From Nesterenkonia halotolerans (GTDB taxonomy: Bacteria > Actinomycetota > Actinomycetes > Actinomycetales > Micrococcaceae), in assembly GCF_014874065.1 (NCBI RefSeq), contig NZ_JADBEE010000001.1:1736001-1800000 (forward strand): DNA of 64,000 nt, in the 5' to 3' direction. Position 1 is the first letter of the stretch. Every line of letters starts with the position of its first letter. Position numbers and translations under genes: made by a program. The notes beneath the pieces are model-generated. The model saw only the letters and a program-made list of their open reading frames with translations, was not told the origin of the DNA and searched no databases. This document shows positions 9,169 through 25,986 of the stretch, piece by piece.

Positions 9169-10614
9169 GTGCCCACACTCGTCGCAGGAATAGATTCCTC
9201 CACCCAGTCCTGCAAGGTCGTCATCCGCGACGCCGAGACCGGCGCCCTGGTGCGCACCGGCTCCGCCAAGCATCCGGAGGGCACCGAGGTCGCCCCCGCG
9301 GCCTGGTGGGACGCCCTGCTCAGCGCCATCGAGTCCGCCGGCGGGCTCGCCGATGTCTCTGCCGCATCCGTCGGCGGTCAGCAGCATGGGATGGTCGCCT
9401 TGGATGCCCACGGCGAGGTCATCCGCGCCGCGCTGCTGTGGAACGACACCCGTTCCGCCGATGCCGCGGCAGAACTGATCAACGAATTCGGCGGCGGGTC
9501 CGAGGGCGCGGCCGCGTGGACCTCCATGACCGGCTCCGTGCCGGTGGCCTCACTGACTGTGACGAAGCTGCGCTGGCTGGCCGACGCCGAGCCGGAGAAC
9601 GCTGGACGCGTGGCCGCCGTCGCACTCCCCCATGACTGGCTGACCTGGAAGCTCTCGGGCTCGACAGACCTCAAGGACCTGGCCACCGACCGCTCGGACG
9701 CCTCCGGCACCGGGTACTTCGACACCGCCGCCGGCACCTATCGCTATGACCTGCTGGCCCGCGCCCTGCGGATCAGCGAGGAAGCGGCGAAGGCGATCAT
9801 CCTCCCCCGGGTCTGCGGCCCGCGCGAGCAGGTCGGCACCGGAGACGATGCGCAGGGCTGGGGCCACCTGTTCCTCGGACCGGGGGCGGGCGACAACGCC
9901 GCTGCCGCGCTGGGCCTGGGCATGAGCACCGGCGACGTCGCGATCTCCATCGGCACCTCGGGCGTGGTCTCCGCGGTCTCGCCCGAGCCGATCCAGGACC
10001 CCTCCGGAATGGTCACCGGCTTCGCTGACGCGACTGGTCAGTTCCTGCCGCTGGCGGTCACACTCAACGGCTCCCGCGTCATGGACGGCGCCGCCCGGAT
10101 GCTCGGCGTGGATCACGCCGGACTGGCCGAGCTGGCACTGGCGGCCGAGCCCGGCGCCCATGGGCTGACCCTGGTGCCCTACCTCGAGGGCGAGCGCACG
10201 CCGAACCTGCCCTATGCCACCGGTTCCTTCATCGGGCTCACCCTGGCCTCGATGAACCCGCAGGATGTGGCACGTGCCGCCGTGGAGGGTCTGCTCTGCG
10301 GACTCGCCGACGGACTGGAGGCGATGACCTCGCTGGGCGTGCCGGTCCAGTCCATCAAGCTCATCGGTGGGGCTGCCCGCTCCGCAGCCGTGCAGCAGAT
10401 CGCACCCGCGATCTTCGGCCGCGAAGTCCAGGTGCCCGCCCCCGGCGAGTATGTGGCCGATGGTGCCGCCCGACAGGCAGCATGGGTGCTCTCCGGCGAC
10501 GCCGAGGCGCCGTCCTGGACCACCGTGGAGTCTGAGACCATCAGCGGCACACCCACTCCCGAGGTGCGCGAGGCCTATGCCGCCCGACGGTCGCTGATCG
10601 CCGAGAAGCACTGA
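9169..10614 (+). CDS. xylB: Xylulokinase
   Basis: A 481-residue FGGY-family carbohydrate kinase that phosphorylates D-xylulose to xylulose-5-phosphate for the pentose phosphate pathway. N-terminal ATPase-fold motif [12 protein letters not shown], substrate region [11 protein letters not shown] and LLWNDTRS, and the C-terminal nucleotide-binding blocks [10 protein letters not shown] and GGAARS are all present, with the catalytic Asp in [10 protein letters not shown]. The start is GTG at 9169, six bases after GAAAGGAG. It lies 136 bp after xylA with a hairpin and a TGTGA palindrome in the gap, so it may be both co-transcribed and separately started. Confidence 0.95.
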
Positions 10615-10864: not shown

Positions 10865-13231
10865 TCAGTTCACGGTGGCCGGAGTGATCAGCACGCGGTG
10901 GCCCTGGATCTCCCGGACCGCCCCGGTGAGGTGCAGCTCAGCCTGCAGCGGCAGCTCACCCACCGAGGGACCGGCGTAGAGATCGATCGCGCCGGGCTCC
11001 ACGATCCGGCGGTAGTCCACTCCGGTGAAGGAGAACCGGTCGGCGTGGACCTCGAAGGTCACGGTGCGGCTCTGGCCCGGGGCCAGCTCCACCTTGGTGT
11101 AGCCGAGCAGCTGCCGGACCGGGCGGGCCACGGAGGCGACGCGATCACCGAAGTAGAGCTGCACGACCTCCTCCGTGGGCCGAGCCCCGGTGTTGGTCAC
11201 CGTCACGCTCACGTGGGCCGTACCGTCCACGGCAAGCTCCGCCGCAGAGACCGAGAGCTCGGAGTACTCCACGGTGGTGTAGCTGAGACCGTGCCCGAAG
11301 GGGTACAGCGGCGTGGGATCCAGGTTGGAGACGCCCTGGCTGTTCTGTCCGAGCGGCGCGGCGATATAGCCGACAGGCTGGCCGCCCGGCAGGGCCGGAA
11401 CGCCGATGGGCAGCCGACCGGTGGGCTCGATGGCTCCGCTGAGCAGATCCACGATGGCGGGCCCGCCCTCTTCGCCGGGGAAGAAGCCCTGCACCACGGC
11501 GGCACAGCGCTCAGCCAGGCCTCCCAGTGCATAGGGACGCCCGGAGATGACCACGAGCACCACGGGCGTGCCGGTGTCCAGGACGGCCTCCACAAGCTCA
11601 TGCTGGGCTCCGGGGAGCCTCAGGTCCTCGACGTCGCAGCCCTCACCGGAGGTGCCCGCGCCGAACATGCCGGCCAGGTCACCCACGGTGACCACCGCAA
11701 TGTCGGCGGCCGCGGCAGACTCGGCTGCGGCAGCGATCTGGCTGTCGTCGTGGGTCACGATCGGGGAGCCATAGCTGTAGGTGACCTCGGCGTCGGCGTA
11801 GGTCTCGCGCAGCGACTCCAGGACCGACGGCATCGGCACGCCGATGCCCTTGTGCGGGAAGGTCCCTGCCGGGTACTTCGCGAGCACGTGGTTGGGGAAG
11901 GAGTAGCAGCCCATCATGGTGCGCGGCTCATCGGCCGAGGGGCCCACCACGGCGACGCGCTTGGCGGCCTGGGAGTCCGGGGCGAGCGGCAGCACGCCGT
12001 CGTTCTTCAGCAGCACCAGTGACTTTGCGGCCACGGTGCGGGCGAGCGTGCGGTTCTCGGGGGAGTCCAGGTTCACCGACTCATCGATGGTGGGCTCCCA
12101 GTCGGCGTCGTCGTCGCCGCGGTCGAGCAGACCGAGCTCGGCCTTCTGCCGCAGCACACGGCGCACCGAGGCGTCCAGCACGGACTCCTCGAGCAGTCCG
12201 TCGCGGACCTGCTGAGCCAGGGTGCGGTAGCCGCCGGTGTGGGGCAGCTCCACGTCGAGACCCGCGGAGATGGCGAGCCGCGCGGCCTCGGCCTGATCGG
12301 CGGCCACGTGGTGCATCTTCTCCAGGAAGGCCACGGACCAGTAGTCGGCGACCACGGTGCCCTCGAAGCCCCACTGTTCGCGCAGCACCTCGGTGAGCAG
12401 CCAGTGCGAGGCGGCCGGGGCCTCGCCGTCGATGTCGGCGTAGGAGTTCATCACCGAGCCAACCTTGCCCTCACGGACTGCGAGCTCGAAGGGGTAGAAG
12501 ATCATGTCGATCAGCTCGCGCTTGCCCATGTGAACCGGCGCGTGGTTCCGCGCGGCACGGGAGGCGGCATAGCCGGCGAAGTGCTTGAGCGTGGCGATGA
12601 TGCCGCTGGACTGCAGGCCTTTGACGTAGGCGGTGGCCAGCGTGCCGATCACGTAGGGGTCCTCGCCTATGGTCTCCTCCACGCGGCCCCAGCGGGCATC
12701 ACGGACGACGTCGAGCACCGGGGAGAGTCCCTGCTGGACGCCGGTGGCGGCCATGTCGGCGCCGATCGCGGCGGCCATCTCCTCGACGAGCTCCGGATCG
12801 AATGTGGCGCCCCAGGCGAGCGAGGTCGGGTAGACCGTGGCCTGGTAGGCGGTGTAGCCGGTGAGGCACTCCTCGTGGGCGATCGCGGGGATGCCGAAGC
12901 GGTTCGCGGCGACCACGGCGGCCTGGCGCTGACGCAGATCCGCGGCACCTTCGGGCACTGACAGGGCCACCGTGCCGTAGGTGCGGGTCAGGTGGCCCTC
13001 GCCGTCGAGGATCTCGGATTCGAAGGGCAGCTTGCCCGCAGACATGGCGTCCTCCATCGGAGCGACCTCACCCTGGGTGTCCGGGTCTTCGCGCATCTCC
13101 CAGTGGGAGCCGAGCTGAGAGACCTTCTCCTCGAGCGTCATCTCTGCCAGCAGCGCATCTGCGCGCTGCTCAGCGGAGAGGGAGGGGTCGTTCCAGGGGC
13201 CGGTGATTCGTTCGGGGGTCTGTTTGCTCAC
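10865..13231 (-). CDS. Glycoside hydrolase family 3 (beta-xylosidase/beta-glucosidase type)
   Basis: A 788-residue retaining glycosidase without a signal peptide, hence probably cytoplasmic and acting on imported oligosaccharides. The N-terminal TIM-barrel domain has the GH3 blocks SPVLDVVRDARWGRVEE, KHFAGY (216-221) and the nucleophile Asp296 in VVADYWSV. The alpha/beta sandwich domain follows (VAVVGPSA, about residue 420), then a fibronectin-III-like domain (residues 690-760, VTVTNTGARPTEEVVQLY). Proximity to xylAB and the sugar ABC operon suggests xylo-oligosaccharide cleavage, but specificity is inference. The GTG start is preceded by AAGGAG. Confidence 0.9.
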   Translation of the reverse strand: MSKQTPERITGPWNDPSLSAEQRADALLAEMTLEEKVSQLGSHWEMREDPDTQGEVAPMEDAMSAGKLPFESEILDGEGHLTRTYGTVALSVPEGAADLRQRQAAVVAANRFGIPAIAHEECLTGYTAYQATVYPTSLAWGATFDPELVEEMAAAIGADMAATGVQQGLSPVLDVVRDARWGRVEETIGEDPYVIGTLATAYVKGLQSSGIIATLKHFAGYAASRAARNHAPVHMGKRELIDMIFYPFELAVREGKVGSVMNSYADIDGEAPAASHWLLTEVLREQWGFEGTVVADYWSVAFLEKMHHVAADQAEAARLAISAGLDVELPHTGGYRTLAQQVRDGLLEESVLDASVRRVLRQKAELGLLDRGDDDADWEPTIDESVNLDSPENRTLARTVAAKSLVLLKNDGVLPLAPDSQAAKRVAVVGPSADEPRTMMGCYSFPNHVLAKYPAGTFPHKGIGVPMPSVLESLRETYADAEVTYSYGSPIVTHDDSQIAAAAESAAAADIAVVTVGDLAGMFGAGTSGEGCDVEDLRLPGAQHELVEAVLDTGTPVVLVVISGRPYALGGLAERCAAVVQGFFPGEEGGPAIVDLLSGAIEPTGRLPIGVPALPGGQPVGYIAAPLGQNSQGVSNLDPTPLYPFGHGLSYTTVEYSELSVSAAELAVDGTAHVSVTVTNTGARPTEEVVQLYFGDRVASVARPVRQLLGYTKVELAPGQSRTVTFEVHADRFSFTGVDYRRIVEPGAIDLYAGPSVGELPLQAELHLTGAVREIQGHRVLITPATVN

Positions 13232-18326: not shown

Positions 18327-19730
18327 TCAGGCGGCGATGGCGTAGACGCCCCAGCTGAGGAAGAAGGCCATGAAGCCGATGGCGGTCGCCATGACGGACC
18401 AGGTCTTCAAGGTGGTGATCGTGTCGAAGCCGCAGAAGCGACCCACGAGCCAGAAGCCGGAGTCATTGAAGTGCGAGAAGGTGATCGAACCCGCCACGAT
18501 GGCGACCACGAGGGACGCCAGGGCGAAGCCGTCGAGTCCCAGCTCCATGACACCGGGGGCCATGATGCCGCCCGCAGTGGTCGCGGCCACGGTGGCCGAG
18601 CCCTGGGCGACGCGGATGACCACGGCGACGAGGAATCCCGCGAGGATGACCGGCAGACCCAGCGCATCCAGCCCCTCGGCGATGGATCCGCCGATCCCAG
18701 TGGCCGTGAGCACGGCGCCGAAGGCACCGCCCGCACCCGTGATCAGAATGATCGAGCAGACCGGAGCCAGCGCGTTGTCGATCAGGTCAGACATCGCCTC
18801 GCCGAGTCCGCCCGAGCCCCTGCGCGGCTTGATGAACAGCAGGTACATCGCGGCCAGAGTCGCGATCAGCAGCGCCACGGGAGTGGGGCCGATGAGCTGG
18901 GAGAGCGCGTAGCCGAAGCTGTCCTCGCTGATGCGGCCATCGGCCTCCAGCGTGTTGGACAGTGCGTTGTAGAAGATCAGCGCCAGCGGCAGGAGCAGCA
19001 CGAAGATGACGGTGCCGAAGGCGGGCCGCGCATACTCCTCGGTGACCCGGGACTCGCCGAAGAGGTTCGGGACCGGGAAGTTCGGGTAGCCCTTGGCCAT
19101 CACCAGTCCGAGCCGGTAGCCCGCCAGGTACCAGGTGGGGATGCCCACCATCATGGCGACGATCAGCACCAGCCCGATGTCCGCGCCCATGACCGTGGCG
19201 GCCGCCGTCGGCCCGGGGTGGGGCGGGGTGAGCGCATGCATCATCAGGAATGCGCCGATGGAGGGCAGCACGTAGAGCATGAAGCTGCCGCCGAGCCTGC
19301 GCGCCACGGTGTAGATCACCGGGAGCATGACGATGAAGCCCGCGTCGAGGAAGATCGGGAAGGCGTAGAACAGCGAGGCCACGGCGAGGGCCAGGGGCGC
19401 TCGCTTCTCCCCGAAGGTGGCGAGCATCTTGTCCGCCAGCACCTGCGCGCCGCCGGAGATCTCGACCAGGCGTCCGAGCACGGCGCCGAAGCCGATGAGC
19501 AGCGCAACATTGCCCACCGTGGTGGAGAACCCGTCGACCACGACGGAGAGGACGTCGCCGACGGCGATGCCGGCGGCCAGTGCGGTGATCAGCGAGACGA
19601 TGATCAGCGAGAAGAAGGCGTGGAGCTTCACCTTCACGATCAGCACCAGCAGCAGAATGATGGAGGCCAGTGCCAGGCCGAGCAGGGCCGGGGTGGGGAG
19701 CTCGAAGGCGAGCGTCAGATCATCGGTCAT
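18327..19730 (-). CDS. GntP-family acid-sugar permease
   Basis: A 467-residue polytopic membrane protein of the gluconate:H+ symporter family, whose members import gluconate, idonate, threonate and similar hydroxy acids. Recognisable blocks are LVEISGGAQVLADKML, HALTPPHPGPTAAA, the GAGGAFGAVL loop and ITFSHFNDSGFWLVG. The C-terminal RVAQGSATVAATTAGG is also typical. It overlaps the dehydrogenase gene by four bases (ATGA), so transport and oxidation are coupled genetically. The substrate is inferred to be a short acid sugar (see findings). Confidence 0.9.
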   Translation of the reverse strand: MTDDLTLAFELPTPALLGLALASIILLLVLIVKVKLHAFFSLIIVSLITALAAGIAVGDVLSVVVDGFSTTVGNVALLIGFGAVLGRLVEISGGAQVLADKMLATFGEKRAPLALAVASLFYAFPIFLDAGFIVMLPVIYTVARRLGGSFMLYVLPSIGAFLMMHALTPPHPGPTAAATVMGADIGLVLIVAMMVGIPTWYLAGYRLGLVMAKGYPNFPVPNLFGESRVTEEYARPAFGTVIFVLLLPLALIFYNALSNTLEADGRISEDSFGYALSQLIGPTPVALLIATLAAMYLLFIKPRRGSGGLGEAMSDLIDNALAPVCSIILITGAGGAFGAVLTATGIGGSIAEGLDALGLPVILAGFLVAVVIRVAQGSATVAATTAGGIMAPGVMELGLDGFALASLVVAIVAGSITFSHFNDSGFWLVGRFCGFDTITTLKTWSVMATAIGFMAFFLSWGVYAIAA

Positions 19731-20695
19731 TTCTTGCCCTTCGGTGCTGGGCCGAGCTCACGCAGCAGGTCTCCCATGCGGGCATAGGCCTTGTTGCGGT
19801 AGGCGATGACCTCAGCCTTGGTCTCGTCGTCGAAGTCTCCGGTCCAACCCTTGCCGTTCTTGACGCCGTGCCGGCCGGCCGCGACGTTCTCCTCGAGCAG
19901 CTTCGGCGGGGCGAGACGCTCGCCGTAGGCCTCGGAGAGCGTGTTGAACCCATTGGCGTAGACATCGAGGCCTGCCTGGTCCGCGATGGCGAAGGGCCCG
20001 AAGAAGCCGAGTCGGAAGCCGAAGGTGGTGCGCACCACCGTGTCGACGTCTTCTGCTGTCGCGATGCCCTCCTCCACCACCGAGGCAGCCTCTTTGAGCA
20101 GCGCATACTGCAGCCGGTTCAGCACCATGCCGGGAGTGTCAGCGACCTCTGCACCCTCGCGGCCAGCGCGGGCCAGCAGATCTTTGACGGCGTCCACCAC
20201 ATCCGGAGTGGTGGCCACGCCGGAGACCAGCTCGACGCCGGGGATGAAGGGGGCCGGGTTGGAGAAGTGCACGGTGAGGAACCGCTCAGGGTGCTTCACC
20301 GCCGAGACGAGCACGTGGACCGGGATGGTGGAGGTGTTCGTGCCGATGATGGCGTCTTCGCGAGCATGCTCGGAGATCTTTCCCAGCACCTCCCGCTTGA
20401 CCTCGGGGGACTCGAAGACGGCTTCCTCGATGAAATCGGACTCGGCGACTGCTGCTTCCAGCGTGCGGCCCGCCGTCAGGTTTGCCTTGATGGTCTCGGT
20501 GGATCCAGCGGCATAGAGCCCCTGGTCCTCAAACTCCTGTGCCTCCTGGAGCAGCCGCTCCAGTCCCTTCTTGGCCGCCTCGACGTCGACGTCGACGATC
20601 TCGACTTTCAGGTCCGCCAGGGCCAGGGATTGGGCGATGCCACCGCCCATGTATCCGGCGCCGACGACTGTCACGGTGTTGATGGTCTTAGCCAT
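19727..20695 (-). CDS. 3-hydroxyacyl-CoA-dehydrogenase-type oxidoreductase, probable acid-sugar dehydrogenase
   Basis: A 322-residue NAD-dependent dehydrogenase of the 3-hydroxyacyl-CoA dehydrogenase/lambda-crystallin fold. The Rossmann motif is VVGAGYMGGGIA (residues 9-20) with acidic EIVDVD ending strand two, so NAD rather than NADP is expected. Family blocks NTSTIPV, VHFSNPAP (catalytic His region) and the C-terminal helical domain with MVLNRLQYALLKEA follow. L-gulonate 3-dehydrogenase belongs to the same fold, and the GntP partner makes oxidation of a sugar acid at C3 more likely than a fatty-acid role. ATG at 20695 was preferred over TTG at 20704. Confidence 0.82.
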   Translation of the reverse strand: MAKTINTVTVVGAGYMGGGIAQSLALADLKVEIVDVDVEAAKKGLERLLQEAQEFEDQGLYAAGSTETIKANLTAGRTLEAAVAESDFIEEAVFESPEVKREVLGKISEHAREDAIIGTNTSTIPVHVLVSAVKHPERFLTVHFSNPAPFIPGVELVSGVATTPDVVDAVKDLLARAGREGAEVADTPGMVLNRLQYALLKEAASVVEEGIATAEDVDTVVRTTFGFRLGFFGPFAIADQAGLDVYANGFNTLSEAYGERLAPPKLLEENVAAGRHGVKNGKGWTGDFDDETKAEVIAYRNKAYARMGDLLRELGPAPKGKK

Positions 20696-20760
20696 GGTTC
20701 TCAAGTCTCTTTCGTCATGTTGCGCTGTCTGTGGATGGTCATGCCGCGATGGCTGCCGCC

Positions 20761-21717
20761 TCAGCTGGTGGCTGGGCGTGCGGCACCGAGCAGCGGGCTG
20801 TTCTCTGCCGAGGTCAGGATCTGGGCGATGTACTCGCGGTTCTCGGCGCAGACTCCGATGGAGTCGGAGCCGTAGTGCTCGCAGCAGAACGGCCCCTCAT
20901 AACCGAGCTCGAGTGCCCGGCGGATGATCTTGCGGTAGTTGATCTGGCCGTACTTCAGCGGCATCGGCGCCGAGGAGTAGCCGCCCGTCGCCGGGTCTTC
21001 ATCCCGTGTGTAGTTCTTGATGTGCCAGAAGTTCGCGTGCGGGAGCACCTTCTCGAACATCTCCTCATACGCCGGCATCGGCCGGTGCAGTCGGATGAAG
21101 TTGCCGAGATCGGGGTTCAGGCCCACGGCGGGGTGGTCGACCTCGGCGTGGAACGCCACGGCCTCATCGGCAGTGCCCAGGAACGTGTCCTCATACATCT
21201 CCAGGCTCAGCTCGATGCTGTTCGCCTGGGCGTGGTCACCGAGTTCGCGGATTCGCTCCACCGCCAGCGGGCGCAGTGCAGGATCGTCATGGTGGCCCTC
21301 CTCGAGCCAGAACCAGAGCGCCTGCTGCTGGACTGGGGTCAGTGCCTGCATGAATCCGGTGTTGACGATGGTCGCACCGAACTCGGGGGCGATGTCGATG
21401 AGCCGATGGGCATCGGCGAGGTTGCGTTCGCCGTGCTCGCGGTCCACCACAGAATTCCGCGTCATGGAGATCGAGGAGATCTTGAGCCCCTCATCCGCGA
21501 GGACCTTCTTGAACTCTTCGAGCCGGGACGGGGAGAGCTTCTGGAGGGGAAGCCAGGCGTCCGTGGGATCGATGTGATCGAAGCCGAGTTCGCGCATCTG
21601 GCGGAGGCAGTCGGACCAATAGGTCGTCGACGCCTCCCAGACCGGGACGCCCTCGGAGGTCTTGCCTCCGAAGGCGAGCATATTTCCTGCAATGGGCCAC
21701 GTGGCTGCTGTGAACAT
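20761..21717 (-). CDS. Xylose-isomerase-like TIM-barrel protein (AP_endonuc_2 family)
   Basis: A 318-residue sugar phosphate isomerase/epimerase-type TIM barrel. Likely metal ligands are visible in order: Glu in LSLEMYED, Asp in GLNPDLGN, His in FWHIKNY and Glu in CCEHYG. Its operon partners are an acid-sugar dehydrogenase and GntP permease, so a role on a keto-acid sugar (isomerisation or decarboxylation) is likely. The exact reaction cannot be read from sequence. The ATG has AAAGGA five bases upstream. It heads the three- to four-gene operon, with its own TTGACA promoter. Confidence 0.75.
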   Translation of the reverse strand: MFTAATWPIAGNMLAFGGKTSEGVPVWEASTTYWSDCLRQMRELGFDHIDPTDAWLPLQKLSPSRLEEFKKVLADEGLKISSISMTRNSVVDREHGERNLADAHRLIDIAPEFGATIVNTGFMQALTPVQQQALWFWLEEGHHDDPALRPLAVERIRELGDHAQANSIELSLEMYEDTFLGTADEAVAFHAEVDHPAVGLNPDLGNFIRLHRPMPAYEEMFEKVLPHANFWHIKNYTRDEDPATGGYSSAPMPLKYGQINYRKIIRRALELGYEGPFCCEHYGSDSIGVCAENREYIAQILTSAENSPLLGAARPATS

Positions 21718-21746
21718 CTGTTCCTTTCAAACGTGCATGCGGGTTC

Positions 21747-21795
21747 ATCTTTGAGTACTTGGGTGCGTGTGTCAAGCGTCACACGTGACATGTGC
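21747..21795 (-). promoter_or_regulatory. Promoter and operator region of the acid-sugar operon
   Basis: Minus-strand -35 TTGACA (21770-21775) with 17-bp spacing to a weak -10 AAAGAT (21747-21752). The -35 lies inside inverted repeat CGTGTG-N8-CACACG (21766-21785), which overlaps GTCAC-AC-GTGAC (21778-21789). ATGTGC follows at 21790-21795, shared with the dhaKL/regulator intergenic region. Confidence 0.5.
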
Positions 21796-21824
21796 GCGCC
21801 GCGGTGAGCCGAAAGCGGCGGAAT

Positions 21825-22610
21825 CTAGGCGTCGGAAGGCCGGGCGGCAAGCTGGAGAAGTTCCAGATATCCCTGCAGGGACCAGGCGGCGCGCCCGATG
21901 AACAGTCCCTCCACTCCGGGGATGGCCAGCAGCTCAGGGGCATTGGCGGGCGTGACGGAACCGCCATAGAGCAGCGCCTCGACTCGGTCTCCGTACTCCC
22001 GGTGCAGCACGTCGAAGGGTTCGAGCAGCTCATCGACCTCGGCCGGGCGCCCCTGCGCGCCGATCGCCCAGATGGGCTCGTAGGCGATGAGGACCCGGCT
22101 CAGCTGTTCCTCGGTGAGCCCCTGAAGTGCACCGCGCGCCTGATCCAGCAGGAAGCCCGCCGCGCCGCCCTCCTGCCGGACCTGGGCGGATTCGCCGATG
22201 CACAGCAGCGGGATCAGCCCGTGTCGAAGCGCTGCCTCGACCTTGAAGCGTGTGGTCTCGACGGTCTCCCCGAAGTGTTCACGGCGCTCGGAGTGGCCGA
22301 TCTCGACCAGCGACGCACCGGCATCGGCGACCTGCGGAACCGAGACCTCCCCCGTCCAGGCCCCGCTGTCCTCCCAGTGCGCGTTCTGCGCTCCGAGGAG
22401 GACTCCGGGGGCGGAGCCGGGGCTCGAGGAACTCGGACCGATCTCGGCGGCCACGGCGGCCAACGCCGTGTGTGGAGGAATGATGAACGGCTGCACCCCC
22501 TCCGTGAGCTCCGGTCGGCTGCTGAGCGCCTCGCGGAGTCCCCGGGCGTAGGTGCGCGCCTCTGCCAGGGTCTTGTTCATCTTCCAGCTGGTCCCGATCC
22601 AGCGTGTCAT
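21825..22610 (-). CDS. Triosephosphate isomerase paralogue, probable L-erythrulose-1-phosphate isomerase (LerI/EryH-like)
   Basis: A 261-residue TIM barrel with the full catalytic set: Lys10 in TSWKMNK, His106 in EIGHSERR and Glu178 in AYEPIWAIG. Canonical glycolytic enzymes have NWKMN, whereas this one has SWKMN within WIGTSWKMN, as I recall for tetrulose-phosphate isomerases of erythritol catabolism (EryH, LerI), which convert L-erythrulose-1-phosphate to D-erythrulose-4-phosphate. Overlap of four bases with a DhaK-DhaL kinase, and a nearby RpiB paralogue, support that role over glycolysis. Confidence 0.85.
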   Translation of the reverse strand: MTRWIGTSWKMNKTLAEARTYARGLREALSSRPELTEGVQPFIIPPHTALAAVAAEIGPSSSSPGSAPGVLLGAQNAHWEDSGAWTGEVSVPQVADAGASLVEIGHSERREHFGETVETTRFKVEAALRHGLIPLLCIGESAQVRQEGGAAGFLLDQARGALQGLTEEQLSRVLIAYEPIWAIGAQGRPAEVDELLEPFDVLHREYGDRVEALLYGGSVTPANAPELLAIPGVEGLFIGRAAWSLQGYLELLQLAARPSDA

Positions 22611-24337
22611 CCGCGATCCTTCTTCAGATGATCCGCCAGAGCCTCCATGAGCAGGGCGAAGGACGTGGCCCCCGGGTCGGGGGTGCCCAGCGATTTGTCC
22701 CCGAGCACCCTCGAGCGGCCCAGCCGCGCCTTGAGCTCTGCGGTGTCGGCGGCCGCCTCGGTGGCAATGGCAGCTGCGGAGGACAGCGCGGAGCCCAGAT
22801 CCTCTCCGGCCTGCGACTGCTTCTGCAGATCCGCGGCGAAGGGAGCTGCTGCGTCGACCATGGTCTTGTCCCCCGGCTGAGCGCCTCCGAGCCGGCGGAC
22901 GGCTTCGACCCCACTGAGCAGCGCCTGCACCGCGGCATCCGGGTCAGCCTTGGTCTCATCCGAGAGAGCGCCGCCCGCTGCGGTGAGCGCCGAACCCCAG
23001 AGGGCTCCGGAGGTGCCGCCCGCCGATTCGGCCCAGGCCGTTCCCGCGTGGAGCAGCACCGTCCTGGCGCCGGCGCCTCTCTCGAGCGCCGCACGGCCCG
23101 CGTCGACCGCGCCGCGGCTGCCCAGCACCATGCCCTGGCCGTGGTCGCCGTCCCCGGCCACGGCATCGAGGCGGCCGAGCTCGCCCTCGTTCTCGGCGCA
23201 GACCCGTGCGAAGAGCTCGATGACCTCCTGCACGGACGCCGCGGTGGCTTGGGACTCCGAGCTGGCCTCGGGAACCTTCTCCTCACCGGGAGTGTAGAAC
23301 TCGGTGCGGGGAGCGCGGTCCTGCATCGACGGAAGATCGCGCAGCTCGCCTCGACGATAGGCGGGAGTGTCGGCGGCGGCGACCCAGTGCCGTTCGAGCT
23401 CCTCGTCCAGGAACACCACGGTCAGCGAAAGTCCTGCCATGTCCAGACTGGTGACGAACTCCCCGACCTCGGGCTGCACGGCGGTGAGACCGGCCTCTGC
23501 GAGGCGCTCAGAGATCCGCCCGTAGACCACAAAGAGCTCCTCGTACTTGACCCGGCCCAGGCCGTTGAGGACGACGGCGACGCGCCCGCTCGCCTCCTGC
23601 GGCACCTCCTCGAGGATGCCTTCGAAGAGCAGATCGGCGACTTCGCTGGCCGTGCCCATCGGGATGTCACGGATGCCGGGTTCGCCGTGGATGCCGAGCC
23701 CGACCCCCATGGTGGACTCGGGGACGTGGAACAGCGGCTCGTCGGCGCCCGGCAGGGTGCACCCGTCGAAGGCCAGACCGAAGGAGCGCGTTGCGTCGTT
23801 GGCCTTCCAGGCGATGCGCTCGGCCTCATCGAGATCGACACCCGCCTCGATCACGGCCCCGGCGATCTTGAACACCGGAAGGTCACCGGCGATGCCGCGA
23901 CGATCACGGTGGTTCTTGCGGCTGTTCGAGGCGATGTCGTCGCTGACTCGAATGATCCGCACATCGATCCCCTCGGCGCGCAGCTTCTCCGCGGCCGCTC
24001 CGAAGTGCAGGACGTCTCCGGCGTAGTTTCCGAATCCCATGAGGACTCCGCCGCCGTTCTCGGCGTTGCGGGCCACGGAGTAGACCTGGGAGGCCGAGGG
24101 TGAGGAGAAGATGTTTCCACACGGAGCACCGTGACCCATTCCCGGGCCGACCCAGCCGGCGAACGCGGGATAGTGTCCTGAGCCGCCGCCGATCACCAGT
24201 GCAGGCTGGCCGGCAGGGGTCTGTGTGGAGCGAACCACTCCCCCGTGCACGGCGGTCACGTACTGCGAGTTGGCGGCGGCGAAGCCGAGCACCGCCTCGT
24301 GGGAGAAATCAGATGCAGAGTTGAGCAGGTAGGTCAT
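22607..24337 (-). CDS. DhaK-DhaL fusion kinase, probable L-erythrulose/dihydroxyacetone kinase (LerK-like)
   Basis: A 576-residue ATP-dependent ketose kinase. The DhaK domain (residues 1-340) carries the His217 in GIHGEP that binds the ketone covalently, and the GGGSGHYPAFAGW block. The DhaL domain (from about 365) has the Mg-ATP site AGDGDHGQGM (Asp396, Asp398) and GGTSGALWG. A fused DhaK-DhaL uses ATP rather than a phosphotransferase protein. Start ATG 24337 is preceded by GAGGAC. Position with the SWKMN isomerase and RpiB paralogue matches the tetrulose kinase LerK/DerK of mycobacteria; dihydroxyacetone is an alternative substrate. Confidence 0.87.
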   Translation of the reverse strand: MTYLLNSASDFSHEAVLGFAAANSQYVTAVHGGVVRSTQTPAGQPALVIGGGSGHYPAFAGWVGPGMGHGAPCGNIFSSPSASQVYSVARNAENGGGVLMGFGNYAGDVLHFGAAAEKLRAEGIDVRIIRVSDDIASNSRKNHRDRRGIAGDLPVFKIAGAVIEAGVDLDEAERIAWKANDATRSFGLAFDGCTLPGADEPLFHVPESTMGVGLGIHGEPGIRDIPMGTASEVADLLFEGILEEVPQEASGRVAVVLNGLGRVKYEELFVVYGRISERLAEAGLTAVQPEVGEFVTSLDMAGLSLTVVFLDEELERHWVAAADTPAYRRGELRDLPSMQDRAPRTEFYTPGEEKVPEASSESQATAASVQEVIELFARVCAENEGELGRLDAVAGDGDHGQGMVLGSRGAVDAGRAALERGAGARTVLLHAGTAWAESAGGTSGALWGSALTAAGGALSDETKADPDAAVQALLSGVEAVRRLGGAQPGDKTMVDAAAPFAADLQKQSQAGEDLGSALSSAAAIATEAAADTAELKARLGRSRVLGDKSLGTPDPGATSFALLMEALADHLKKDRG

Positions 24338-24369
24338 GACTGTCCTCGTGGTCCCGGATCGGTACACCC

Positions 24370-24405
24370 TTGACGGGTGGTACAGATGTGCGCTGACATA
24401 TGTGC
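24370..24405. promoter_or_regulatory. Divergent control region between dhaKL and sorC-type regulator
   Basis: Plus-strand TTGACG (24370-24375) is a possible -35 for the regulator gene. Between and after the promoter elements are ATGTGC at 24386-24391 and 24400-24405 (14 bp apart) and the palindrome ACATATGT (24396-24403). ACAGATGT (24382-24389) recurs at the rpiB promoter. A likely operator for the SorC protein. Confidence 0.45.
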
Positions 24406-24481
24406 TGAGGCCACCCTAGAGCAGATAGCGTGACCAGCACCACTTTCCGCGCGGAGTCAGCTGGACGGATACGATGTCCCG

Positions 24482-25441
24482 ATGGAGGCAACAGAGGTCA
24501 TGAAGGACGCCGACGCGGGCACATCTGAGCTGGAACGCCTGTATCGCGCTGCCCAGCTCTACTACGAGCAGGGAGCGACTCAGGCGGAGGTTGCAGAGCA
24601 GCTGAAGGTCTCCCGGCCCTCGGTCAGCCGCATGCTCGCAGAAGCGCGTGCGCAGGGAATCGTGGAGATTCGAGTCCACCGCCCCGCGGCCTCCGGCATG
24701 GACGAGCTCAGCGCGCGGTTGACCCAGAAGCTGGGCGTGGAGGCAGTGCACCTGGCGCCGGGAGATCAGTCTCAGCGCGTCGGGCTGGGCCTGGGCCCCG
24801 TGACGCGGCAGGCCCTGGCGGGCACGAATCTGCGCGCCGGTGACGTGCTGCTGCTGGCCTCAGGGGAGACGACCTACGCATTGGCCCAGCAGCGCCTGGG
24901 TGACTTCTCCGGAGTGGTCATCGCGCCGACCGTGGGCGGCCAGGCAGAGCCCGATCCCTGGCACCAGACCAATGAGGTGGTGCGAGCCTTCGCCGCCACC
25001 TCCGGGGGATACCCCCACTATCTCTTCGCGCCGTCGATGCCGTCGCCGGCCCTGCTCTCGGCGCTGCAGGACGACCCGGGCTATCGCCAGGTGGTCGCCG
25101 ATTGGAACACCGCAAAGGTGGCACTGGTGGGCATAGGCGCGGCACCGCTGTCACGCAATTCGATCGCTCAGTCAGTGCCTCGCCATCATCCGAATCTCGC
25201 GAAGTCGATCGGCGACGTCTGCCTCGCGTTCTACGATCCGCAGGGCCATGAGGTCACGTTCCCCGGCAGCGAGCGGATGGTGCGGGTTCCCGGCGAGACG
25301 CTGCGTGCCGTTCCCACGCGCATCGCGGTGGCAGTCGGGGTCCACAAGGCGCCGAGCATCATTGCCGCGGCCAACGCAGGGTGGTTCAACATCCTGGTGA
25401 CCGACGAGTCAACGGCTCGCGCGGTGGACCGCCAGCTCTAG
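24482..25441 (+). CDS. SorC/DeoR-type transcriptional regulator of the tetrulose cluster
   Basis: A 319-residue sugar-responsive regulator. The N-terminal helix-turn-helix is at about residues 30-58 ([25 protein letters not shown]), followed by the sugar-phosphate-binding domain (residues 75-315) typical of SorC and EryD. It is divergent from the dhaKL-isomerase pair and convergent with the rpiB paralogue, its stop codon overlapping that gene's by four bases. This is the usual setting for a local regulator responding to a phosphorylated pathway intermediate. The start could instead be the ATG at 24500; neither has a strong ribosome binding site. Confidence 0.88.
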
Positions 25442-25914
25442 CTGCAGCTACCGGTGTCCTCGTAGCGGGTGATGGCCCCGACCTTTTCTGCGGAGGCGCT
25501 TGAGGGGTCGAACTCATGCTTGAGCCACTCATCGACGAGCTTGCGGGCAAGCTCCCGGCCGATCACGCGCTGTCCCATGCACAGGACCTGCGCGTTGTTC
25601 GAGAGCACGCCACGCTCCACGGAGTAGGCATCGTGGGCGGTGACTGCGCGAATGCCCTTGACCTTGTTGGCCGAGATGGCCACGCCGAGACCAGTGCCGC
25701 AGAGCAGCAGGGCTCGGTCAGCCTCGCCCGCGACGATCTTCTCCGCGGCGGACACTCCGACATTCGGATAGGGAGTCTTATCGGCGTCATCGCCGACCCC
25801 GACGTCGAGGACCGAGGCCACCCGAGGATCGGCCTCCAAGTCAGCTTTCAGGACCTCTTTATAGGCGAAACCGGCTTCATCGCTGCCGATGACGATGCGA
25901 AACTGACTGCTCAT
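25438..25914 (-). CDS. RpiB/LacAB-family isomerase, probable D-erythrulose-4-phosphate isomerase (EryI/DerI-like)
   Basis: A 158-residue ribose-5-phosphate isomerase B family protein. The signature [14 protein letters not shown] carries the catalytic Cys72, and [21 protein letters not shown] follows. The N-terminus [16 protein letters not shown] retains the substrate-binding Asp. EryI and DerI of erythritol/threitol catabolism belong to this branch and make D-erythrose-4-phosphate, which enters the pentose phosphate pathway. The frame extends to 25950, but the ATG at 25914 follows GGAGGAG. It has its own promoter. Confidence 0.87.
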
Positions 25915-25948
25915 GATGGCTCCTCCACTCGTACCAGGGTCTTCCTCC

Positions 25949-25986
25949 ATGCTACGTCGCGCAGAACAAACGTCAAATACATCTGT
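25949..25986 (-). promoter_or_regulatory. Promoter and possible operator of the rpiB paralogue
   Basis: Minus-strand -35 TTGACG (25971-25976), 16-bp spacer, -10 TAGCAT (25949-25954). ACAGATGT (25979-25986, minus strand) lies immediately upstream of the -35 and also occurs in the regulator/dhaKL control region. Confidence 0.5.

Follow-up and report, generated by a model that had tools for sequence, protein, structure and literature searches.

We describe a gene cluster of Nesterenkonia halotolerans, located at positions 18327-25950 of a 64,000-nucleotide stretch (contig NZ_JADBEE010000001.1, positions 1,736,001 to 1,800,000; hereafter the window), that we read with moderate confidence as a self-contained catabolic cluster for a five-carbon (C5) sugar acid, in which the metal enzyme APE most likely acts as decarboxylase. 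In the proposed pathway, a GntP-family permease would import the acid and the dehydrogenase HCD would oxidize its C3 hydroxyl with NAD+, giving a 3-oxo-pentonate. Loss of CO2 from this intermediate, most likely on APE, would yield L-erythrulose. A DhaK-DhaL fusion kinase (DhaKL) would then form L-erythrulose 1-phosphate, a TIM-family isomerase (TIM) would shift the carbonyl to give D-erythrulose 4-phosphate, and an RpiB paralogue would produce D-erythrose 4-phosphate, which enters the pentose phosphate pathway. A SorC-type regulator would control the gene set. The proposal starts from the observed gene content and its linkage, from the close copies that its downstream genes have in an apionate-type module of the same genome, and from PdxA-type enzymes that take the place of HCD elsewhere. 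Each reaction, as well as the identity of the acid, is predicted from sequence comparison.

All six genes named in the first-pass annotation were recovered on the minus strand by open reading frame analysis and profile searches of the window. They encode the GntP-family permease, the putative acid-sugar importer (18327-19730; PF02447, 367.9 bits, E = 8.8e-110); HCD, a 3HCDH-type NAD-dependent enzyme and candidate C3 dehydrogenase of the free sugar acid (19727-20704; PF02737, 163.4 bits; PF00725, 80 bits); APE, a PF01261 metal TIM barrel proposed to be a 3-oxo-acid decarboxylase or an erythrulose 3-epimerase (20761-21717; 111.5 bits); TIM, of the SWKMN type, the putative L-erythrulose-1-phosphate isomerase (21825-22610; PF00121, 213.7 bits); DhaKL, the candidate L-erythrulose 1-kinase (22607-24367; PF02733, 360.5 bits; PF02734, 150.6 bits); and RpiB, the putative D-erythrulose-4-phosphate isomerase (25438-25950, with an ATG at 25914; PF02502, 151.6 bits). 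GntP and HCD share 4 bases, as do TIM and DhaKL, and gaps of 56 and 107 bases separate HCD from APE and APE from TIM, respectively. The SorC-type sugar-binding regulator (24482-25441, plus strand; PF04198, E = 2.3e-34), which the annotation had not named, sits between DhaKL and RpiB. No polyol dehydrogenase was present among the cluster genes. Open reading frames and domain searches thus confirmed the set of overlapping or closely spaced same-strand genes as it had been claimed. The permease also exceeded the cut-off of the gluconate:H+ symporter model TIGR00791 (330.2 bits; cut-off 292.75) and adjoins HCD in loci of Nesterenkonia and Mycobacterium. The gene set recurs in Nesterenkonia, Mycobacterium, Brachybacterium and others, and given this recurrence across genera it is not a chance arrangement. 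The closest loci found were from Nesterenkonia, with one APE (L004) being 98% identical.

HCD and APE are linked. Among 394 genomes of the class, searched for APE at E ≤ 1e-40 and for HCD at E ≤ 1e-60, 19 contained APE and 17 contained HCD; both were present in 12, APE only in 7 and HCD only in 5. If the two genes were independent, co-presence would be expected in 0.8 genomes (19 x 17/394). The two lay no more than 2.4 kb apart in all 12 genomes with both, two of which (G002 and G336) had a second HCD copy distant from APE. We then surveyed 104 loci, all found via APE, and counted the 86 with at least 7.6 kb on each side, omitting the other 18. Note that these loci are related and not independent (L108 and L036 are apparently one contig, L004 is near-identical to L052, and L063 and L064 belong to one genome), that six (L088-L091, L104 and L105) were added by choice, of which L105 was dropped by flank length, and that genus labels were entered by hand. 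HCD was present in 58 of the 86 loci and a PdxA-type dehydrogenase in 14; no locus had both. DhaKL accompanied APE in 55 of the 58 HCD loci and 12 of the 14 PdxA loci, RpiB in 49 and 5, and TIM in 43 and 5, respectively; all three were present in 38 of the HCD loci and 5 of the PdxA loci.

PdxA-type enzymes are beta-hydroxy-acid dehydrogenases, and the loci that encode them carry a tripartite tricarboxylate transporter (TctA in 13 of 14). In the rhizobial version, PdxA, TctCBA, APE and DhaKL lie beside a GntR regulator (Sinorhizobium L088, Shinella L091, Pararhizobium L104). A Paracoccus version is represented by L083, L089 and L090. A joint reading that extends the proposal to a second, PdxA-based version of the route in rhizobia and other bacteria falls somewhat short of even confidence, and we put it forward tentatively.

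The downstream half of the cluster occurs a second time in the genome. An apionate-type module lies just past the window end, starting at ~65,400 in window numbering and ~40 kb from the cluster (L086:4410-11815, within C1:1797001-1816000). It encodes OiaC-like, ApnO-like, GntP, SorC, DhaKL and TIM proteins; its RpiB lies at the end of L001. The module copies are 75-76% (TIM), 86% (DhaKL), 89% (SorC) and 85% (RpiB) identical to those of the window. The presence of two kinase/isomerase/RpiB/regulator sets with different upstream halves suggests that both halves deliver the same ketose. In the Brachybacterium loci L037 and L039, a single DhaKL-TIM-RpiB set in the stretch examined is accompanied by both feeders, ApnO-like/OiaC-like and APE/HCD. 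Moreover, kinases of HCD clusters and of apionate-type modules interleave in a tree of 35 kinases: the N. sandarakina HCD-cluster kinase groups with the apionate-type kinase of the N. halotolerans genome (support 0.91), and the apionate-type kinase of Erwinia clusters with that of the Carnimonas HCD cluster (support 0.95). The shared sets, the two Brachybacterium loci and the kinase tree argue for L-erythrulose over dihydroxyacetone as the product of HCD and APE. HCD and APE thus look like a different feeder onto the same L-erythrulose-to-erythrose-4-phosphate module.

The window has the gene set of a putative erythrulose module, with DhaKL, RpiB and a TIM other than the NWKMN one of the genome encoded together. 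The window TIM reads TSWKMN, as does EryH of the erythritol ery locus (L102), and the other TIM of the genome (C1:653136) reads GNWKMN. Note that SWKMN is no general mark of such loci, being present in 26 of 62 TIM stretches, with 1 reading GWKMN and 35 lacking the pattern. The earlier suggestion that DhaKL, an SWKMN-type isomerase and RpiB resemble an erythrulose-to-erythrose-4-phosphate set is supported by the occurrence of the same set in apionate-type modules. Two further systems offer comparison. LerK, the kinase of the tetritol pathway, is of the DhaKL type. As in the window, that pathway uses a kinase and two isomerases to reach erythrose 4-phosphate, but the window has an acid importer and an acid dehydrogenase in place of a polyol dehydrogenase. 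The available part of PMC10733421 describes the pathway in Mycolicibacterium smegmatis (EltD, LerK, LerI, DerI) as converting erythrulose to erythrose 4-phosphate with a kinase and two isomerases, and the accessible text of PMC12780249 also gives M. smegmatis as a tetritol-pathway organism. The ery locus (EryC, EryH, EryI) likewise groups a TIM-barrel protein, a TIM and RpiB; in contrast to the window, a kinase and glycerol-3-phosphate-dehydrogenase-type genes act first there.

D-apionate was the acid favored in the first-pass annotation. The D-apionate route to L-erythrulose comprises ApnO, OiaC, LerK, LerI and EryI; OiaC decarboxylates 3-oxo-isoapionate, and the ApnO reaction involves a hydroxymethyl migration. 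In Erwinia (L101) we found a cluster of 'phosphogluconate dehydrogenase C-terminal domain' and sugar phosphate isomerase/epimerase family proteins with DhaKL, TIM, RpiB and a sugar-binding regulator. It thus shares with the window an acid dehydrogenase, a PF01261-type enzyme, the kinase, both isomerases and the regulator type, and HCD and APE fill the architectural slot of the Erwinia ApnO-like/OiaC-like pair. However, the window dehydrogenase is of the 3HCDH and not the PF16896 type, its PF01261 enzyme belongs to another subfamily, the Erwinia TIM begins VSLKMY rather than TSWKMN, and the substrate presumably differs. We take ApnO to be of the PF16896 type from context; the L037 relative was the one tested as PF16896. 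The Rhizobium bangladeshense locus L093 likewise encodes a 'phosphogluconate dehydrogenase C-terminal domain' protein, close to annotated OiaX, a four-carbon acid sugar kinase family protein, TIM and RpiB. The ApnO-like protein of the N. halotolerans module is 63% identical to that of L037 and its OiaC-like protein 53% identical to that of Erwinia, and by context the two are probably ApnO and OiaC. OiaC-like and ApnO-like proteins matched no NCBIfam model at the limits used (E 1e-10; 1e-20), and an OiaC-like protein had no PDB sequence match at E 0.01.

The possibility that D-apionate is the substrate of the window cluster, with HCD and APE as analogues of ApnO and OiaC, has to be weighed against a separate ApnO/OiaC-type module in the same genome. 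The OiaC-like and APE families are remotely related, in line with such an analogy, but in 4 of the 58 HCD loci an ApnO-like gene stands beside HCD and APE, and a 3HCDH enzyme does not account for the hydroxymethyl migration of ApnO. We consider this substrate very unlikely for the window cluster; D-apionate is better suited to the neighboring module. A further OiaC-like TIM barrel, in another unexplained use, was seen on a Paracoccus marcusii plasmid (L103:2322-10568) together with a TRAP transporter, a short-chain dehydrogenase/reductase (SDR), a split transketolase and a kinase of DhaKL size.

We next considered which kind of dehydrogenase HCD is. Grouping with genuine 3-hydroxybutyryl-CoA dehydrogenases would speak against a role in sugar acid oxidation, and here scores and motif pointed in different directions. 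The top-scoring PDB matches of HCD were CoA-type enzymes (3mog, 158.5 bits; 6aa8, 146.5 bits), closely followed by 4om8 (145.2 bits), a dehydrogenase whose name gives a free pyridine carboxylate as its substrate. When these proteins were aligned, the catalytic-His motif read HFSNP in HCD and HWSNP in 4om8, whereas both CoA-type enzymes have HFFNP. H[FYW]SNP was present in 68 of 68 HCD relatives tested, and HFFNP is the motif of the other two proteins of the genome that strongly match 3HCDH. In addition, both CoA-type enzymes, unlike HCD and 4om8, require a gap before GP (FGFRLGFFGP vs GYKIAVIGP). The motif and the gap pattern favor a free acid as the putative HCD substrate. The Ser of HFSNP is the sole motif residue used to set HCD apart from CoA-type enzymes; a Pro (IPGVE in HCD) was dropped as a separator, since the L127 protein of the same genome has AMPLVE.

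An ordinary 3-hydroxybutyryl-CoA dehydrogenase that lies in a dihydroxyacetone or erythrulose kinase locus by chance would explain why CoA-type enzymes score best for HCD in the PDB and NCBIfam. However, none of the 21 NCBIfam matches of HCD reached its cut-off (best 218.5 bits vs 427), and the Ser motif in all relatives tested and the linkage of HCD to APE and the kinase in the surveys above also speak against it. Protein names given by the sources were generic, with the family named 3-hydroxybutyryl-CoA or 3-hydroxyacyl-CoA dehydrogenase (among the best 120 of 3213 proteins; the other protein listing held the best 120 of 1390). We regard this explanation as highly improbable. A precedent for the proposed chemistry exists in animals, where, in the part of PMC12435205 available, L-gulonate 3-dehydrogenase, a 3HCDH-domain-linked enzyme, oxidizes a free sugar acid at C3 and a dedicated metal-dependent 3-dehydro-L-gulonate decarboxylase produces a ketose one carbon shorter. 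The animal pair differs in converting C6 to C5 and in using a DUF1907 decarboxylase unrelated to PF01261. Lambda-crystallin entries, compared in this connection, scored 96.8-99.5 bits against HCD, below the CoA-type enzymes. One relative (P0030) is listed as L-gulonate 3-dehydrogenase, which we judged to be an automatic name.

APE is closest to PDB entry 5tnv (E = 4.2e-157; 73% identity; TM-score normalized by target length, 0.97), a magnesium-containing structure from Mycobacterium smegmatis whose name is generic. Residues E173, D203, H232 and E280 of APE are invariant in 16 of 16 aligned sequences and were matched by eye to E152/D185/H211/E246, the metal ligands of ketose 3-epimerases given in the available text of PMC8167858. 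By its model, APE is a metal-dependent protein of the PF01261 isomerase/epimerase fold with four ligands (E, D, H, E). It does not appear to be an OiaC orthologue: APE groups with 5tnv, its relation to the OiaC-like family is a remote one at the profile level, and the OiaC-like protein of the genome, which is encoded in the other module, was weakly matched (E = 3.4e-4, 25% identity). In NCBIfam, APE exceeded no cut-off. In profile comparison, APE matched the OiaC-like family with a probability of 97.2; an unassigned TIM-barrel protein of Rhizobium likewise showed similarity to APE (89.2) and to the OiaC-like set (95.7). OtnI (7.1), Hyi (1.8) and EryC (0.8), each represented by one sequence, were not matched. 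Note that this comparison is rough, as the OiaC-like profile has repeated members and UlaE, EryC, Hyi, OtnI and FrlC are single sequences. The parallel with the ApnO-OiaC pair favors decarboxylation as the probable role of APE.

Several findings weigh against the pathway as proposed, and those on APE bear on the decarboxylation step. In profile comparison, the 3-epimerase UlaE (96.9) is as close to APE as the OiaC-like family is. In the fold search, 5tnv was followed mostly by epimerases and isomerases, with UlaE, Art22 (an isomerase) and ketose 3-epimerases closest to the APE model. In addition, 14 of the 86 loci lack both HCD and PdxA. If PdxA-type enzymes decarboxylate unaided, APE would not be needed as a decarboxylase where they replace HCD. 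These points suit a different scheme, in which CO2 would leave the 3-oxo acid either spontaneously or while on the dehydrogenase, so that a D-pentonate, for example D-xylonate, would yield D-erythrulose. As an analogue of EryC, APE would then be a metal-dependent 3-epimerase that converts D-erythrulose, or else D-erythrulose 1-phosphate, to the L form used by DhaKL and TIM. According to the part of PMC10733421 available, EryC is a D-erythrulose 1-phosphate 3-epimerase that acts before LerI. The best NCBIfam match of APE is L-ribulose-5-phosphate 3-epimerase (42.6 bits, cut-off 200), and GH3 and GH39 beta-xylosidase matches suit D-xylose as the source. Persistence of APE beside PdxA-type enzymes and in loci without either dehydrogenase favors an epimerase; L062, L064 and L071 combine APE with DhaKL and RpiB in this way, L062 keeping an HCD remnant. 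On the other hand, the single EryC sequence was not matched by APE, and the predicted models of APE (pLDDT 90.8) and of the OiaC-like protein (pLDDT 82.2), a decarboxylase by context, both land on ketose 3-epimerase folds, with the OiaC-like model also landing on D-tagatose 3-epimerase. Because the OiaC-like model shares the fold neighbors of APE, the fold search does not separate decarboxylase from epimerase. We consider the epimerase scheme possible, but clearly less probable than decarboxylation by APE.

Other contrary findings concern the downstream half and the carbon number. The TIM of the window scores above the cut-off of NF000722, the equivalog model for triose-phosphate isomerase (340.3 bits vs 293), and RpiB passes the ribose-5-phosphate isomerase model TIGR02133 (198.5 bits, cut-off 168.2) and stays below the cut-off of the D-erythrulose-4-phosphate isomerase model NF051858 (158.7 bits vs 240), which is named for Rhizobiales-type enzymes. 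TIM was not seen in 15 and RpiB not in 9 of the 58 HCD loci, OtnK and LtnD markers were present in 8 and 9 of them, respectively, and the alphaproteobacterial PdxA loci (L083, L088-L091, L104) have APE and DhaKL with no TIM or RpiB nearby, which argues against a strict need for both genes in the cluster. Finally, the genome has xylA (C1:1743863, in the window), an adjoining FGGY kinase read as xylB (9169-10614) and araA. Ordinary pentose routes are thus present, and the GH3 and ABC genes of the window may serve those. The curated TIM and RpiB models, araA and the loci with neither HCD nor PdxA left our weighting unchanged, because general models should match substrate-shifted close relatives.

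Some of the same findings would fit a four-carbon (C4) acid, a tetronate, which HCD would oxidize at C3; decarboxylation would give dihydroxyacetone, DhaKL would form dihydroxyacetone phosphate and TIM glyceraldehyde 3-phosphate, with RpiB being incidental. Beyond the OtnK and LtnD markers, the alphaproteobacterial loci without TIM and RpiB and the triose-phosphate isomerase match, this scheme draws on the PdxA-type enzymes and on the OtnK and OtnC-like genes beside APE-DhaKL in Paracoccus. E. coli ygbJKLMN (LtnD, OtnK, OtnC, OtnI, YgbN) has a TIM-barrel isomerase and a transporter (YgbN, presumably GntP-type), as does the window, which differs in having no OtnK-family kinase or OtnC and in the lack of a match between APE and the one OtnI sequence. 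Yet RpiB is present in most HCD loci (49 of 58), kinase, TIM, regulator and RpiB are closely copied in the apionate-type module, the genome has another, NWKMN-type TIM, and no OtnC or OtnI marker was found in the 58 HCD loci. Furthermore, a four-carbon acid sugar kinase family protein adjoins OiaX in the apiose-type locus L093, so that this family is not C4-specific. The C4 scheme is the weaker rival of the C5 reading, and we judge it improbable, more so than epimerization by APE.

In support of a C5 acid, the shared erythrulose module and RpiB are joined by pentose glycosidases (GH3, GH39 and GH51 types) near some loci. The window GH3 protein (10865-13231) scored 1010.7 bits on a beta-xylosidase/alpha-L-arabinosidase model, just under the cut-off of 1050, and matches beta-xylosidase 7zb3. 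In Promicromonospora L063, a GH39 protein that matches beta-xylosidases comes before APE, and similar proteins were recognized by eye in L069 and L077; alpha-L-arabinofuranosidase C-terminal domains are present in L015 and L120 proteins; and in Microbacterium L080 a 780-residue protein of the Nesterenkonia GH3 family (F13) ends a few bases before APE. The general chemistry proposed in the first-pass annotation, from an imported C5 acid via a 3-keto acid to L-erythrulose, stands as the best explanation; D-apionate as the acid is not supported. Taking the decarboxylase and epimerase versions of APE together, we regard the C5 reading as likely. The acid would be an L-pentonate, for instance L-arabinonate, if decarboxylation is the sole role of APE, and a D-pentonate such as D-xylonate if it epimerizes D- to L-erythrulose.

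The segment 6363-18282 of the window, read partly by eye, is a xylose block with a ROK-type regulator, xylose isomerase, an FGGY kinase, the beta-xylosidase-like GH3 enzyme, two permeases and a tandem pair of solute-binding proteins that runs into the GntP gene on the same strand.

With regard to regulation, two ACATNTGT sites between DhaKL and SorC (24382-24403) form a candidate operator, and a ACATCTGT site is found upstream of RpiB (25979-25986, plus strand). In the whole window, ACATNTGT occurs in four places (5 matches, the palindrome being counted twice): the pair between DhaKL and SorC, one ahead of RpiB and one at the APE start, which overlaps the start codon and was not used as evidence. 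The positions are striking, but the count is not, with 5 matches against 2.5 expected and at least 5 in 11 of 100 shuffles. Among 13 Nesterenkonia loci, a related site, defined by a pattern picked after the alignment had been seen, preceded DhaKL or SorC in 10 loci and RpiB in 6 (L004-L007, L052 and L075, 36-76 bases upstream of the RpiB match). No site was found before DhaKL in L011, L012 and L042 of these 13, the L042 stretch being without DhaKL. The RpiB start lies outside the stretch in L008 and L009, and RpiB follows DhaKL in L010 and L013. The sites are consistent with co-regulation of RpiB with the kinase operon.

The survey also revealed loci of other composition. The 14 loci with neither HCD nor PdxA had DhaKL in 6 and an SDR marker in 10. 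In Promicromonospora panici (L062:13280-13483), a 68-residue stretch matching the HCD start (62%) lies downstream of APE-DhaKL-RpiB, and the locus has no full HCD. The HCD-APE pair of L109 (7182-9106) has no DhaKL, TIM or RpiB marker in the 17 kb examined. L113:6098-7195, close to APE and TctA/TctC, encodes a protein whose start is, by eye, isocitrate/isopropylmalate-dehydrogenase-like. As its genome gave no match to HCD at E 1e-60, this protein may be a partner dehydrogenase of a third type. Downstream of APE, the Brachybacterium loci L035, L041, L043 and L055 have paired FMN-dependent and D-specific 2-hydroxy-acid dehydrogenases and SDRs, with no HCD. Psychromicrobium L054:6058-13630, which may be a C5-ketose version, combines APE with an AraD/UlaF-like protein, an FGGY kinase, a Hyi-like PF01261 protein and a zinc alcohol dehydrogenase and has no DhaKL marker.

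In conclusion, the cluster looks like an undescribed sister route to the apiose-acid pathway. The gene set was not described in the titles and abstract openings returned by open-licence literature searches, which is weak evidence that no description exists. If the proposed pathway is correct, the erythrulose module would gain another type of feeder besides polyols and apionate, and the genome would illustrate how a catabolic operon can have its downstream half present twice, with two distinct upstream halves. The pathway would also provide a function for the 5tnv family, whose structure is solved but whose name is generic, and for a dehydrogenase family now labeled 3-hydroxybutyryl-CoA or 3-hydroxyacyl-CoA dehydrogenase. 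It comprises few genes, which makes it directly testable, and it would predict that many Actinobacteria and, with the PdxA version, Sinorhizobium can grow on a sugar acid.

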